Assembly: GCA_913056395.1 (NCBI GenBank)
Contig: CAJXMG010000019.1
Coordinates: forward strand, 1-50,858
Origin: an uncultured bacterium
GTDB lineage: Bacteria > Planctomycetota > UBA8108 > UBA1146
Direction: 5' to 3'
Length of the DNA stretch: 50,858 nucleotides
Shown: positions 5,197-11,142 of the stretch, piece after piece
Position numbering within the stretch: the first letter of the stretch is position 1
Layout: every line of letters starts with the position of its first letter
Position numbers and translations under genes: made by a program
The notes under the pieces: model-generated
Databases searched by the model: none
Told to the model about the DNA's origin: nothing
What the model saw: the letters and a program-made list of their open reading frames with translations, nothing else

Positions 5197-6504
5197 TTGA
5201 CCTCCATCATCCTCATCCTCGCTATGTTCAGTGGAATCAACGAGGATGAGGGTGAGAGGTCTGCCGAGATTCGACCCGCAGATCTCCTGCAGAATCTCGA
5301 TCACCCCGACCGCTGGCGCTGGATCCCTGAGGACCGCATGCCGGAGGGGAATCTCGTCAAGCGCCTGTTGGTGACCTCCTTCGTTTCTCCCATCTTCTTC
5401 TTTGACAGCGATGTCGGAGCGGGAGGGGGATTCGGTGTTACCGATATCGATTTTGGCAACAAGCGTCGCCGTCAGTTCGCCAATACCTGGATCACCTACA
5501 CCACCGAGGGGCAGCAACGCTTTGCCTTCTCCTGGAGAAAATGGTTGGCTCACCAGGACTACCCTGGCCGGGGCAGCTTGCAGGGGGACCGCGATTTCTT
5601 TGGTATCTCTCTGGAGAGATCGAAAACCCTGACCAGCCGTTTTTTCGGTTTTGGTGCCGACACCCTTCTCGATCAGGAGTCCTCGTACAGCCGGGAGACC
5701 AATTCCCTCGGTCTGGGAATCCAGAAGTCTTTACCCAAGACCGGTGGCAACTGGATCTGGAACTTCAATCTCTTGCTGCAAACCGATGACATCTCTTCGG
5801 GAACGGTCGGTGACGCACTGGACATGACCGTGGCTTATCCGGAGGTGGCTGCCGGTTCCGACGATTTCGGTGCGGTATGGATTAAAGCGGGGATTCGCCA
5901 TGACACCCGTGATGCCCAGCACCTTCCCTATGAAGGCCACTCGGTGGGCATCTCATTCTTTGGCTGCCCCATCACTTCCCAGGATCTCGCAGGTGAAGAA
6001 TTGGATGGTGGAGTGGTGACCACTCTCTCTGGAACCTGGGTCAGTCCTGTCACCCCCCTCTTCCATTCGGGTGGAACTCCCACCGCTGACCACCCTTTGA
6101 TCGACTCGATCGCCACTTCCCTCAGCATCTCCGGAACTTCCGGTGAAATCCCCTTCTGGGCGTTACCTTCTATTGGTGGCAGTCAAATTCTTCGTGGAAG
6201 TATTGGTGGCCGCTGGCGTGATCGACACGCGTGGAATGCAGGGTTTGAGTGGCGGCCATGGATCTTTACGGATGAGATCCCCATCTATCGCAAGATTCGC
6301 CTCGAACGTTCTGGCATCGCCCTCTTCTTCGACGCAGGGTCTGTCGCCAACTCCTTCGATCAACTCTTCTCTGAAAAAGTTCACTACAGCTACGGAGTAG
6401 GCTTCCGCTTCACTTTTGAAAGACAGGCGCTGTTCCGTGCAGATCTTGGCCGATCAGATGAAGGCGAATTCAATATGAGCATCCGCTACGGTCTGCCCTT
6501 CTGA
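5197..6504 (+). CDS. Omp85-superfamily outer-membrane beta-barrel protein
   Basis: Alternating hydrophobic/polar strands fill the protein from about residue 60 to the end, with repeated Gly/aromatic girdles. The DVGAGGGFGVTDIDFGNKRR segment resembles the first barrel strands of BamA/TamA 'surface antigen' domains. Near the C-terminus 'GSQILRGS' resembles the conserved RG(Y/F)-type L6 motif, and the protein ends in Phe, as many barrel proteins do. There is no room for POTRA domains, so it is a barrel-only member. The start is a TTG at 5197 giving a short hydrophobic leader; ATG 5224 is the alternative but cuts into that leader. A short remnant resembling its 3' end lies at 8829-8873 next to aat. 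Substrate unknown. Confidence 0.75.
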   Translation: MTSIILILAMFSGINEDEGERSAEIRPADLLQNLDHPDRWRWIPEDRMPEGNLVKRLLVTSFVSPIFFFDSDVGAGGGFGVTDIDFGNKRRRQFANTWITYTTEGQQRFAFSWRKWLAHQDYPGRGSLQGDRDFFGISLERSKTLTSRFFGFGADTLLDQESSYSRETNSLGLGIQKSLPKTGGNWIWNFNLLLQTDDISSGTVGDALDMTVAYPEVAAGSDDFGAVWIKAGIRHDTRDAQHLPYEGHSVGISFFGCPITSQDLAGEELDGGVVTTLSGTWVSPVTPLFHSGGTPTADHPLIDSIATSLSISGTSGEIPFWALPSIGGSQILRGSIGGRWRDRHAWNAGFEWRPWIFTDEIPIYRKIRLERSGIALFFDAGSVANSFDQLFSEKVHYSYGVGFRFTFERQALFRADLGRSDEGEFNMSIRYGLPF

Positions 6505-6532
6505 TCAGGATACTTCCACTTCCATCTCTGAA

Positions 6533-6617
6533 TTATTGTTGTGGAAAAGGGCGACTTTGCCATTCTAGCGGAGGGGATGATTTCCACAGAAGGTTCAAAT
6601 AGCTATCAACGCTGATC
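6533..6617 (-). pseudogene. 3' remnant of a second aat gene
   Basis: Reading leftward, the last 27 codons before the stop at 6533-6535 give ISVDSYLNLLWKSSPPLEWQ then SRPFPQQ. The intact aat at 8875-9510 ends ISDENYSSLLSRSSPPLEWQ then SRPFPQQ. The reading frame, the stop and the last 15 residues agree while several third codon positions differ, so this is an aged copy rather than a fresh repeat. No other part of aat is present: the remnant begins about 20 bases after the stop of the broken lipoprotein gene. It lies in the 3' intergenic space behind the barrel gene, matching the position of the intact aat relative to the barrel-like remnant at 8829-8873. Confidence 0.88.
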
Positions 6618-6635
6618 AATATTTCAGCAATCAAC

Positions 6636-7726
6636 CTAGAAAGAACCACCTCTTATTCTTACTCCTTCTGTGCTGTAATCGATCGTCCTCCATCGAATAC
6701 TGAAAGTGTCCAAGTTTAGTAAAGCGTTCTTGATTTCGTTTATTTTCGAATAGGAATCCATCTCAAATTGAAGCCCCGGCATCGATGACCAGAAAATGGC
6801 ACTTGCTGCAACCCGGGAAATCACTTCTTCATTTGCTTTTCCTTCAGCAGAAGGTTGCCGATTGGAACTCCCCCGCTGTAGCTGTTTGGAGGCCTTGAGT
6901 TCCAAGTCAAAACCACTTTCTCACCGTGAAGTGACTGTAGTTTTTCCATTGTGAGAGCGGTGGATTCCCCTTCTTTTTTGATTTTTACCCTGGAAGGCAT
7001 TCCTGAAACCCAGCCAGTATCGGTGATTTTGAAAAGTTTTTCCCCGGCATACAAAATTTCGTCGGCGATTCCTTCACCAGAACCATCACCTGTTTGCAAC
7101 TGAGGTGGTCCAGGAAATCCTGCAGAATCTTTATCTTGCTTGCTCTTGATTTGCCGCACTTCAAATTCACCTCTTCGGGAATTGTAATCCCACTTTAAAT
7201 CATCAAAATTTTTCTGGATGAAAACGTAGTCAGGGTGGTCCAGCCAAGTTGTCTTCAGTGCGAATACCACTCGTTTATTATCAGTTTCTACAACCAGATA
7301 TACCTGCTTACCTGGGGCAAGATCTTAACTCTTGAGTCGCTCAAGAATGACATCCGCCTCCATACCCTTCACACCTTCACGATTCAAAAACAAAGTTGGC
7401 GGCAAATTGAGGGCTCTCTGTGGCCCAAGGCTTTCAATCGAAAAGTCCATAAAATGGGACAGACCAGCCTTCCCAAAATTTATTCCATTCATGTCACTAT
7501 CAAACTCAGCAGCAAGGAGTGGCTTTCCCAGATGAACGAGACCGATAGATTCTGTCTGTACAGAACTGCCCCCTTCAACAGGTTGATCCACTTTCGTCGC
7601 AACTGAAATTTTGAATGCACTTCCCGCAGAAGTAGGGACTAGCCAGGATATGTAGATCGTAAAAACTGCGGGGAATAACACCAAGCCGATGAAAATGACT
7701 GCTACGAGAGATATCCAAATTTTCAT
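6636..7726 (-). pseudogene. Broken third copy of the local lipoprotein family
   Basis: The start codon at 7726 overlaps the stop of the upstream paralogue as ATGA. The first 133 codons align with the intact 357-residue paralogue (VDQPVEGGSSVQTE, LVHLGKPLLAAEF, FSIESLGPQRALNLPP). A TAA at 7325-7327 then interrupts the frame exactly where the paralogue reads LRSDALAPG; the same frame continues with DLAPGKQVYLVVET and LKTTWLDHPDYVFIQ. Near 6830-6900 the match moves to another frame, ending AIFWSSMPGLQFEMD and RGGSF at 6636. One nonsense codon plus one frameshift make a pseudogene likely. The N-terminus has a membrane segment but no clear lipobox Cys. A sequencing error could explain one lesion, hardly both. 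Confidence 0.82.
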
Positions 7727-8691
7727 AATGTCCCTCCAGTGGAAGAGATCCCCTTCTTGGTAAAGCTGATGCGGTTCCAACTAATGTCATATCGAAAGCT
7801 CTCAAAACTGGTGAGATCTGCTTTGAGTTCATCGATGACTTCAGTCTTTCCCATATCTATATGCAAACCTGGCGCAGAAGGCCAAAGGTATGCCCTCTCA
7901 CCTACCCAATCTCCTGAGGAATCTTTCCAGGCGGCGATCGTTTCTTTGCAAAACCATCTATCTGAATAGATCTGACCCGCAGATAACCCATCTTCATTTT
8001 TATCAGGTCTTTCATTAGCGGTTTCTTTTGCTCGATTGAAAAATCCAGTCGACGAAGTCAACGTGGGTTGAAACACCAAAGCCCCTCCATAAAGCGTCTG
8101 ATTAGATTCAGAGTACCAAATTGGGATCTCCTTCACAGGCTCGTCAGAAGCCTCCAGCAGTTTCAAAAATTCAACCTGAGATCGCCTTGGGTTCGTCGTC
8201 CGGTAAGGGCTTGAGTATTGAATAAACAAGCCGGTGGGATCGTCTCTCTGTGAAATCTTCAATCGGTGTGCGACTCTTCTGCCTTCGCAATCTATCAATA
8301 AATAGATGGACCTCCCTGACTGCAGAAACTCACTACTCATACTCTCCAAATAATCCTCCATTGACATCCCGGAAGATTTACTCGATTTCTTTTCTGATTG
8401 AAGAAACATCTGAGGACTTAAACACAAAAAATAGTCTTCAAAATGCGGCAGCGAGAGCTCTGTGAATACGACTTCTTCGTCATCCACAAAACTGGCTTTC
8501 AATAATGGGGGACCCAAGTGAACGGTACCAAGTTTAGAAGTAGTGATCGTCGATCCGCCCTCAACAGGAGCGGGCGTTTCATAAGTGATCGAGATCATCA
8601 TCGACGAATCTTTTGAAGTACATCCACCAATCAAAAGTAAAATCGCCAGTGATGTAATCAGAAGAGATAGCGAACTGCGATTCATTCTCAT
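7723..8691 (-). CDS. Exported lipoprotein, paralogue B of a local family
   Basis: A 322-residue protein starting with a lipoprotein signal (SLAILLLIGGC; lipidated Cys near residue 24). I do not recognise the family. Shared features with the neighbouring copies are 'PVEGGSTITTSKLGTVHLGPPLL' near residues 42-64, a central 'SGRSIYLLIDCEGRRVAHRLK' segment, a 'LWPSAPGLHIDMG' segment, and a C-terminus ending ISSTGGTL. The middle part is divergent from paralogue A, which keeps 'LYAGDSLFTITKSGRIAGMPSW'. The stop codon overlaps the start of the next copy by four bases. Base composition is AT-richer than that of the flanking housekeeping genes. Probably a periplasm-facing or outer-membrane lipoprotein; function unknown. 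Confidence 0.75.
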   Translation of the reverse strand: MRMNRSSLSLLITSLAILLLIGGCTSKDSSMMISITYETPAPVEGGSTITTSKLGTVHLGPPLLKASFVDDEEVVFTELSLPHFEDYFLCLSPQMFLQSEKKSSKSSGMSMEDYLESMSSEFLQSGRSIYLLIDCEGRRVAHRLKISQRDDPTGLFIQYSSPYRTTNPRRSQVEFLKLLEASDEPVKEIPIWYSESNQTLYGGALVFQPTLTSSTGFFNRAKETANERPDKNEDGLSAGQIYSDRWFCKETIAAWKDSSGDWVGERAYLWPSAPGLHIDMGKTEVIDELKADLTSFESFRYDISWNRISFTKKGISSTGGTL

Positions 8692-8828
8692 CGACTCAAC
8701 CTCATCGGTACTCAGCTTCTTCGCTACTTATCGTCATAGGAAAGAGACTCAATGATGGCGGGGTTGCATTATTGTATCAGAACATGACTGGCAAATAAGA
8801 AGGAATCTATGATGGATGCTTCAGTCAA

Positions 8829-8873
8829 TCCGATGATGGCGAGTCCAATATGAGCGTCGACTTCATTACCTGA
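8829..8873 (+). pseudogene. Probable 3' remnant of a second barrel gene
   Basis: Read rightward this gives SDDGESNMSVDFIT and a TGA. The intact barrel gene ends SDEGEFNMSIRYGLPF and TGA (6454-6504). The frame is kept, 7 of the first 9 residues match, and in both places the stop is followed at once by the 3' end of an aat sequence on the other strand. The stretch is short, so chance similarity is possible, but the synteny makes a duplicated and eroded gene end the better explanation. No clear match to the barrel gene could be followed further upstream in 8700-8828. Confidence 0.55.
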
Positions 8874-8874
8874 A

Positions 8875-9510
8875 TTATTGCTGTGGGAAGGGGCGGCTTT
8901 GCCATTCAAGCGGAGGGGATGATCTCGACAGCAGGCTCGAATAGTTTTCGTCGCTGATCATCTGTGCACCAAAACGTTCCATATGGGGAGTCTGTTGCTG
9001 GCAATCGAGAATGGCATAGCCCAGATTTCTCAGGTGCTCGACCAAAGCAACGATGCACAACTTGCTCGCTCCGGTTTCCTTATGAAACATGCTCTCGCCG
9101 GCGAAAACACCGCCAACCGACAATCCATAAACTCCACCCACCAGACGACCGCGTTCATCCCAGGCTTCTATCGAATGGGCAAAGCCCAAAGCGTGCAACT
9201 GCACATAGAGTTCTTCGATGTCGTGACAAATCCACGTTTCACGGCGTTCCGCACATGCCTCGATCACAGCACGAAATGCCACATCTGTCGTCAGACGAAA
9301 CGGCTTTTTGTTGCGTAATTTTTTGAGAGAGGCTGGGATATGAAACTCTTCCAGATCGATGACCGCACGTTCGAAAGGACGAATCCAGAAGATCTGGCCA
9401 TCCCGATGATCCGCCATGGGGAAGCAGCGCTCTCCATAGGCACGAAGAACCCGCGCCGGACTGACCGGGATCCCCTCTTCATCTCGAATTCTTCGAATCG
9501 GCTTCAACAA
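8875..9510 (-). CDS. aat: Leucyl/phenylalanyl-tRNA--protein transferase
   Basis: Transfers Leu or Phe from aminoacyl-tRNA to proteins with N-terminal Lys or Arg, creating N-degrons read by ClpS. Recognisable family stretches are RCFPMAD (about 28-34), IFWIRPFERAVIDLEEFHIP (40-59), ETWICHDIEELYVQLHALGFAHSIEAW and the catalytic-core GGVYGLSVGGVFAGESMF. At 211 residues it is shorter than the 234 of E. coli and lacks the usual N-terminal 'GLLAVGGDL' segment. The start must be TTG at 9510 or the next codon: a TGA lies nine codons upstream in frame, no ATG intervenes, and AAGAAAGG sits just before. It lies 79 bases after lipoprotein copy A on the same strand. clpS is at 25671. Confidence 0.93.
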   Translation of the reverse strand: MLKPIRRIRDEEGIPVSPARVLRAYGERCFPMADHRDGQIFWIRPFERAVIDLEEFHIPASLKKLRNKKPFRLTTDVAFRAVIEACAERRETWICHDIEELYVQLHALGFAHSIEAWDERGRLVGGVYGLSVGGVFAGESMFHKETGASKLCIVALVEHLRNLGYAILDCQQQTPHMERFGAQMISDENYSSLLSRSSPPLEWQSRPFPQQ

Positions 9511-9589
9511 ACAGCCTTTCTTCGGTCTTCAACCAACCTTGCCAGACCTTCTGATTCTATCGCCAATCGGCGCCTTTGCAGAGGAGGTC

Positions 9590-10663
9590 TCATAGTGTCC
9601 CTCCGGAAATGGAAATTCCCCGCTCCATATAATCAAAACTGGACCACCCCAATCCGCTGATGCCCAGATTTCGGAGCCCTCTTTTGATCTCTTCCAGGCG
9701 CCATGGTTCATCCATCTCAAACTGGATTCCCGGGGGACTCGACCAGAAGATTACCCGGCTGGCATACACTTTTGAATCCCGGGGCTCCTTCCACGTCATG
9801 AGCATGTGCCGACCATGCATCACCTTAATCTCATCAAGGGAGGGACAGGTTTTGTTGGGATCCTTCCAAACGTGACGGTCGCTCAGGGATTCCAGATCTT
9901 CTTCAGAGAGACCCAAATCTTTCCCTTCCCGAATGATTTTGAACCAGGATGGCATGCCCGCAATCCTGCCACTTTTGGTGATGGTGAAGAGAGAATCTCC
10001 GGCATATAGGGATGTGCCCTGCAAAACAGGGGATCCGGCCTCGTCATACAAGGGAGTACGAATGTTGGAGAATTCGACCGCTTCGGGATCACCCGCATCT
10101 TTCAAGCTGTGAATTTCAAAGGAAGTGGCGCGTGCTATGTCAATCCACTTGGCCTTCTTGAGGTCTGTCTGTATGTACACATGATCAGGATGGTCAAGAC
10201 AGGTGGTTTTCAATTTGAAAGCCAGCCGCTTCTCAACGGTCTCAATGACGAGAAAAACCGAGCTGCCGGGAGCGAGAGCATCGCTCCGGAGTGCCTCGAG
10301 AATATCCTCCTCTTTCATCCCTGTTACTTCGGCACGCTGAAGAAAGAGCCTCGGTGACAGGTTGACGATCCTTTCAGGACCCAGTGATTCAAAAGAAATA
10401 TCCCTGTAGAGATTGCCGTCATCGACAATCGATTTCGTATCTGAAATCTCTGCCGCCAGCACCGGCTTCCCCAAATGCACCTGTCCCAAAGCTTCCGTCG
10501 CGACCGTCATTCCGCCTTCCACCGGCTCGTCTACCTCGGTCGAGATTGAAATCTTGTAAGAGGCCGTAGTCCCTGAAACAGATTGGGCCACGCATCCGGC
10601 GAGCACAAAAACTGTGGCGTTGAGGACAAGAAAGATGGATGTGAAATTCTTCAACAACTTCAT
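9590..10663 (-). CDS. Exported lipoprotein, paralogue A of a local family
   Basis: The longest intact member (357 residues) of the unrecognised family. The signal ends in a clear lipobox, VFVLAGC, with lipidated Cys near residue 23. Conserved landmarks, in order: VDEPVEGGMTVATEALGQVH (about 43-62), SFESLGPERIVNLSPRLFLQ, a segment SSVFLVIETVEKRLAFKLKT that looks like a beta-sheet core, DHPDHVYIQ, LYAGDSLFTITKSGRIAGMPSW, VIFWSSPPGIQFEMDEPW, and the terminal ISISGGTL. The family looks beta-rich and is probably periplasmic. It sits between a small membrane-protein gene (51 bases upstream) and aat (79 bases downstream), all leftward. The stop is contained in CTATGA, as in paralogue B, whose stop overlaps the next gene's ATG. 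Confidence 0.8.
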   Translation of the reverse strand: MKLLKNFTSIFLVLNATVFVLAGCVAQSVSGTTASYKISISTEVDEPVEGGMTVATEALGQVHLGKPVLAAEISDTKSIVDDGNLYRDISFESLGPERIVNLSPRLFLQRAEVTGMKEEDILEALRSDALAPGSSVFLVIETVEKRLAFKLKTTCLDHPDHVYIQTDLKKAKWIDIARATSFEIHSLKDAGDPEAVEFSNIRTPLYDEAGSPVLQGTSLYAGDSLFTITKSGRIAGMPSWFKIIREGKDLGLSEEDLESLSDRHVWKDPNKTCPSLDEIKVMHGRHMLMTWKEPRDSKVYASRVIFWSSPPGIQFEMDEPWRLEEIKRGLRNLGISGLGWSSFDYMERGISISGGTL

Positions 10664-10713
10664 CGCTCTCCAATAAATTGGGATTCATTTCAACTCGAAG
10701 GGCGGGAAGCTGA

Positions 10714-11091
10714 TTATAACAAACTGTAGGCGTAAAACAGTGCTCCACTGATCAGCAACTGGAGACACCCGATTCCCAAGTGGGCTCCCCTCAAGAATCT
10801 CAGGGACATTTGAATCAATCCTGCAGTCCAGAGAGCTCCAATCGCACACTTGATCATCGTCACCCACGCCAGAATGCTCAGAACACCGAGCAAATCCGCC
10901 GCAGGGTAGGGGTTTTCCTTGACCGCCAACGCTCCGATGAGCAGCCATGCTGACATCAACCAGCGGACTTTGGGGGCATCCTGAGTGAAACGTTCTACCC
11001 GGCTCAAAAAATCCTGCCGTTGAACCAGTAATGAGGTACCGAAGAGAAACTCCCAAATCGCAACCAGAAGACAAAAATGATCGGGGGCCAT
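10714..11091 (-). CDS. Small integral membrane protein, unknown
   Basis: A protein of about 125 residues with roughly four hydrophobic segments: FCLLVAIWEFLFGTSLLV, WLMSAWLLIGALAV, LLGVLSILAWVTMIKCAIGAL, and IGCLQLLISGALFYAYSLL. I do not recognise a family. The ATG at 11091 was preferred over a GTG nine codons upstream because AGGA precedes it and the first helix starts just after; the upstream GTG has no ribosome site. The gene begins only 51 bases from the divergent transporter gene, so any promoter must be in that gap or inside one of the two genes. Another reading frame over nearly the same bases lacks the hydrophobic pattern and was rejected. Confidence 0.6.
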   Translation of the reverse strand: MAPDHFCLLVAIWEFLFGTSLLVQRQDFLSRVERFTQDAPKVRWLMSAWLLIGALAVKENPYPAADLLGVLSILAWVTMIKCAIGALWTAGLIQMSLRFLRGAHLGIGCLQLLISGALFYAYSLL

Positions 11092-11142
11092 CTTCCTGCT
11101 TTCAGTGACAACGCCCACGGACGATGCGAGGATGTCAGCAAC

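Follow-up and report, generated by a model that had tools for sequence, protein, structure and literature searches.

Introduction

Gene-gain hotspots are sites at which variable genes lie between conserved core neighbours. Tandem duplication-random loss (TDRL) is described as a standard model of gene-order change in mitochondrial genomes (PMC5975268, PMC3283314), and in Streptococcus pneumoniae transformation-linked unequal crossing-over is reported to produce tandem duplications and merodiploidy (PMC3784515). Here we analyze a locus of an uncultured marine planctomycete that an earlier note on this DNA had read as a decayed tandem duplication around aat, and we compare it with such systems.

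Materials and Methods

The genome under study (G000) is a 2.77-Mb assembly, and the window covers positions 1-50,858 of its contig CAJXMG010000019.1. Six congeners (G001-G006) were compared, of which G002, G003, and G004 are the three nearest sister species; the congener records that carry titles are marine Planctomycetota metagenome bins. Other family members in which aat was found are G007, G008, G009, G011, G013, G014, and G015, and in G010 and G012 the same search of family genomes found no aat. G000 is nested among G004, G002, and G003, with a dS to these sisters of ~0.1-0.3. The MoxR gene of G003 was left out of the dS comparison because its values were frame-shifted, and because NG86 dS was saturated or infinite for several genes between G000 and G006, fractions of fourfold-site differences were used instead. 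The three paralogous lipoprotein genes at the locus are called lipoA, lipoB, and lipoC (A, B, and C).

Results

The barrel gene (5197-6504, plus strand) is intact, encodes an Omp85-like protein of 435 aa, and lies beside aat throughout the family. Its product matches the NCBIfam model Omp85_fam with E=5e-16 and scores 59.1 bits over residues 229-424 against a curated cut-off of 200 for NF047779, which suggests a relationship to the Omp85 family, and we do not file it as a member. The intact aat gene (8875-9510, minus strand) encodes a leucyl/phenylalanyl-tRNA--protein transferase of 211 aa that belongs to TIGR00667 (175.3 bits; curated cut-off, 143.55) and matches Pfam PF03588 (206.8 bits, 2e-61). 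One intact copy of the barrel gene and one full aat gene plus a ghost are present in the G000 assembly, where the order is barrel gene, ghost aat end, A, B, ghost barrel end, aat, and C.

That an intact barrel end is followed by a ghost aat, and a ghost barrel end by the intact aat, was the central observation of the earlier note, and alignments within the window bear out both halves of it. Positions 6515-6618 match 8857-8960 with 82% identity over 104 nt without gaps (blastn E=1.9e-24), and the barrel ends at 6453-6483 and 8828-8858 match with 84% identity over 31 nt (blastn E=7.9e-4), the two repeated junction ends being spaced 2.34 kb apart. When one junction was aligned against the other, as the note had proposed, the similarity was far above chance: the local score is 113, and the best of 1000 dinucleotide shuffles reached 28. 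For the barrel piece by itself the score is 37, and 5000 shuffles gave at most 31. The duplicated gene ends are real and were correctly spotted, and a direct repeat of one ancestral junction flanks the rearranged genes on both sides. A search of the whole 2.77-Mb assembly located the junction repeat in two places, with no third site. Both copies lie at gene ends, as a shared terminator or attachment site might, but the repeat consists of coding sequence from two genes, no terminator-like site was found at either junction and no excess of such sites in the region, and the genomic places are two only; we reject a functional element in place of a remnant.

The ghost aat end (6533-6619, minus strand) comprises 28 codons and a TAA stop, so that the note had identified the remnant rightly and miscounted it at 27 codons. 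No full-length open frame is left, only residues 183/184-211 beside the lipoA stop, so that ~183 codons of aat are missing along with the intergenic sequence, up to that stop. Its identity to residues 183-211 of the intact protein is 69-71% (E=7.7e-7 when the whole genome was searched, 1.6e-7 in a second comparison). The last 15 codons are conserved, with five synonymous and no nonsynonymous changes from the intact gene, and here the note's description of a kept protein sequence with third-position differences holds; it fails for the 13 codons before, which are eroded, nine being changed (eight nonsynonymous, one synonymous). The ghost differs at 14-15 of 84 sites from the aat of G000 and G002-G004 and at 31 of 84 from that of G006. 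Because it agrees at two sites with G004 and G003 and not with the resident G000 gene, it did not arise by recent copying of the latter, which upholds in part the note's alternative of an origin from a divergent relative, although the ghost is still nearer to the G000-G004 group than to G006. Both the ghost and the intact G000 gene end in TAA and the aat genes of G002-G004 in TGA, a small point that hints at local copying. The spacer between the barrel stop and the ghost aat stop (6505-6532), delimited by alignment, resembles the spacer that separates the barrel gene and aat in G002, G003, and G004.

The ghost barrel 3' end (8821-8858, plus strand) consists of ~10 codons (SDDGESNMSV versus SDEGEFNMSI) and lacks the final codons together with most of the spacer. 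The barrel remnant is as the note had it, but the full second barrel gene from which it was supposed to have eroded need not have existed: the ghost begins directly after the conserved region upstream of lipoB, at ~8812, and because of this direct contact the duplication boundary may simply fall inside the barrel gene.

The gene order of relatives, which the note had suggested comparing, shows aat and the barrel gene as direct neighbours in all six congeners and in the seven other family members examined, and the junction is tail-to-tail in the three nearest sister species; the short segments in G000 are remnants of these two genes. Since the two genes are neighbours in all those relatives, the junction is ancestral and the separated arrangement in G000 is derived, the undisturbed ancestral order being preserved in the relatives. 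G003 and G004 share the order barrel gene, aat, C, a small membrane-protein gene, and an EamA transporter, with no insertion, and in G002 the locus is split over two contigs with the same neighbours. A and B are absent from all three. The order in G006 is barrel gene, aat, A, B, and a third lipoprotein gene, and aat is followed by one lipoprotein gene in G005 and by two in G001; among the genomes compared, it is only in G000 that lipoprotein genes lie between aat and the barrel gene. Because G006 has barrel-aat-A-B, the ghost aat end, A, and B represent an old collinear unit. As judged from the sequence, the extra block in G000 is the stretch at 6.5-8.87 kb, with the ghost aat end, lipoA, lipoB, and the ghost barrel end.

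In G002, two contig ends carry aat (L030:8646-9236 and L031:11098-11681) and overlap by 546 nt with 97% identity, which would reflect either mixed strains or a genuine second copy of aat.

An overlap of contig ends at 97% identity is a typical sign of strain mixture, and with the titled congeners being metagenome bins one might take the G000 arrangement for an assembly chimera of two strains in such a bin. We consider this very improbable: the joins of ghost aat to lipoA and of lipoB to ghost barrel consist of decayed sequence, which requires a real molecule, and the two junctions, at 82% identity, lack a long exact word in common.

The extra block holds two of the three lipoprotein paralogs. 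The lipoA gene (6636-7726, minus strand) is a pseudogene with an in-frame TAA at 7325-7327, a frameshift near 6884-6914, and a ~39-nt gap relative to its G006 counterpart, which is intact. The lipoB gene (7723-8691, minus strand) is intact, and its 322-aa product shares 66% of its amino acids with G006 lipoB. Positions 6633-8693 show 74% identity when aligned to A-B of G006, and beyond them the homology extends through the lipoB upstream region (8692-8812, minus strand) to ~8812, with 73% identity at 8733-8809. The lipoC gene (9590-10663, minus strand; 357 aa) is intact and highly variable between sister species. Amino acid identity is ~44% between A and C and 26% between B and C; these homologous genes are the copies of one lipoprotein family that the note had placed before each aat 3' end on its own strand. 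Between lipoC and the EamA gene lies a small membrane-protein gene (10714-11118) that has no Pfam or NCBIfam match and, as called, overlaps the start region of EamA on the opposite strand.

A profile search across the phylum found the lipoprotein family in 7 of 98 genomes, all of this genus, always at the aat-adjacent locus and in one to three copies per genome. Two copies are broken, lipoA of G000 and one of G001. The latter (L034:6568-7620), with an in-frame TAG, lies beside an intact copy, in parallel to lipoA. The lipoproteins match no Pfam family and no PDB sequence, and against NCBIfam they gave a single weak match below threshold. A fold search with a predicted structure of moderate confidence (pLDDT 66) returned nothing significant (best E 0.025, TM below 0.2). 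As regards carriage by mobile elements, no relatives were detected among IMG/VR viral contigs or in plasmids. A surface role, suggested by the lipobox, is only a guess.

The lipoC proteins of G000 and G004 are 99% identical, whereas identity to those of G002 and G003 is 72-74% where the neighbours reach 96-99%, and dS in that comparison is ~0.6 for lipoC versus ~0.25 for the neighbours. At the DNA level, lipoC of G000 is nearly identical to that of G004 and diverges from those of G002 and G003 by ~20%, with sharp edges approximately at the gene ends (9516-10719) and a divergence of a few percent in the flanking genes. Allelic exchange or strong diversification would leave such a pattern, the gene having been replaced allelically or being hypervariable.

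The composition of A and B sets them apart from their surroundings, with GC3 values of 0.41-0.45 against 0.588 for lipoC and 0.51-0.71 for resident genes, and it equals that of the lipoproteins of lower-GC congeners (0.44-0.47). Between G000 and G006, fourfold sites differ at 69 of 175 positions in A-B (0.39) and at 1325 of 2226 in resident genes (0.60; Fisher p=3e-7), a contrast part of which may come from the GC shift of this clade. The aat gene to the right of the block looks native, and on the barrel side there is an excess of G000-private substitutions: 28 private differences fall in 750 bp (5700-6449), whereas the 1800 bp ahead of this stretch hold 17 (Fisher p=7e-6). By this count the 3' half of the barrel gene (5700-6500, plus strand) is a possible donor tract of recombination, and a recombinant tract from ~5700 to ~8870 would fit. 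Against G004, the private substitutions in 5700-6500 are mostly synonymous.

These data bear on whether the duplication arose in the G000 lineage. Under such a history, barrel-aat-A-B-C would have been duplicated in tandem, followed by complementary loss of aat from copy 1 and of the barrel gene from copy 2, and the sisters would later have lost A-B, for instance by recombination between two junction repeats. This history accounts for the topology exactly, finds its required ancestral order (barrel-aat-A-B) in G006, and agrees with the grouping of the ghost aat with the G000-G004 genes and with the TAA stop common to both G000 copies. It requires, however, repeated loss of A-B, G000 being nested among G004, G002, and G003, and it leaves A-B without the GC3 rise seen in lipoC (0.588) and with a synonymous divergence from G006 below that of resident genes; we regard it as rather unlikely. 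Import is favored over it because A-B are absent from the three sisters, have a low GC3, and show the lower synonymous divergence from G006, and also because of the private-substitution tract in the barrel gene. The note's tandem duplication of an ancestral unit keeps its topology and complementary loss, but it was probably not a recent event in this lineage.

Another form of import would be a Campbell-type integration. Here a circular or re-ligated fragment carrying barrel end, aat end, and A-B would enter by a single crossover and produce two half-native, half-foreign junctions, and the locus has this appearance: a resident barrel gene with a divergent aat end on the left, a divergent barrel end with native aat on the right, and a ghost barrel joined directly to the lipoB upstream region. 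Yet no plasmid or phage relative of the lipoproteins was found, and the private substitutions extend ~0.8 kb into the barrel gene, which a double crossover explains better, so that we judge this route improbable.

Discussion

We interpret the block as a scar that tandem duplication of the barrel-aat junction left behind, in an allele that had probably been rearranged before homologous recombination brought it into this genome (probability roughly 0.6). In the history that we infer, a unit with the barrel end, aat, A, and B would have been duplicated in tandem, a deletion reaching the lipoA stop would then have left one aat copy with only its final 28 codons, and lipoA would have become a pseudogene. 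The duplicated and partly decayed allele would have entered G000 from a related lineage by homologous recombination near the barrel-aat junction, so that an import, and not a duplication after the split from the sister species, would account for its presence. No donor genome of the block was found among the genomes compared. As the barrel 3' tract is not AT-rich, a close lineage of high GC, itself a recipient of A-B, would be needed as the immediate donor; A-B may have entered such a lineage first and then spread. The aat ghost end and A-B may have come from different donors, since by its aat differences the ghost stands closer to the G000-G004 group than to G006.

The event would be one rearrangement of a genus-specific lipoprotein hotspot where, between core neighbours that stay fixed, copy number (one to three) and alleles change rapidly. 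We tentatively suggest, at somewhat less than even odds, that the aat-adjacent locus is a genus-specific diversification hotspot where sister species swap whole divergent lipoprotein alleles and blocks of genes by homologous recombination, and that the ghosts are footprints of one such swap; surface-antigen or phage-receptor loci swap alleles in this way. The variable lipoprotein locus is a more interesting lead than the scar itself. The scar is a clear small-scale record of gene-order change by duplication, complementary decay, and recombination. It also draws attention to a lipoprotein family of uncultured marine planctomycetes that is restricted to one genus and evolves far faster than the neighbouring genes; apart from these two points, no general view is changed.

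As an evolutionary scar of duplication and recombination, the block is ordinary in kind. It differs from general gene-gain hotspots in that the variable genes are paralogs of one genus-specific family for which no mobile relatives were found. The duplications described for S. pneumoniae measure ~100-900 kb and are bordered by repeats such as IS remnants (PMC3784515), whereas the G000 block is 2.3 kb, shows no IS, and is known here from sequence alone. Borrelia lipoprotein loci are likewise described as diversified by recombination and selection (PMC11389397); the organism is a different one and no host interaction is known for G000, and the likeness is one between loci. The parallel with TDRL, as that model is described, is that a segment is copied in tandem and complementary copies are lost, with short remnants and an altered gene order as the outcome (PMC5975268, PMC3283314); unlike its mitochondrial counterparts, the G000 case lies in a bacterial chromosome, in a fast-changing lipoprotein cluster, and was probably spread by recombination.
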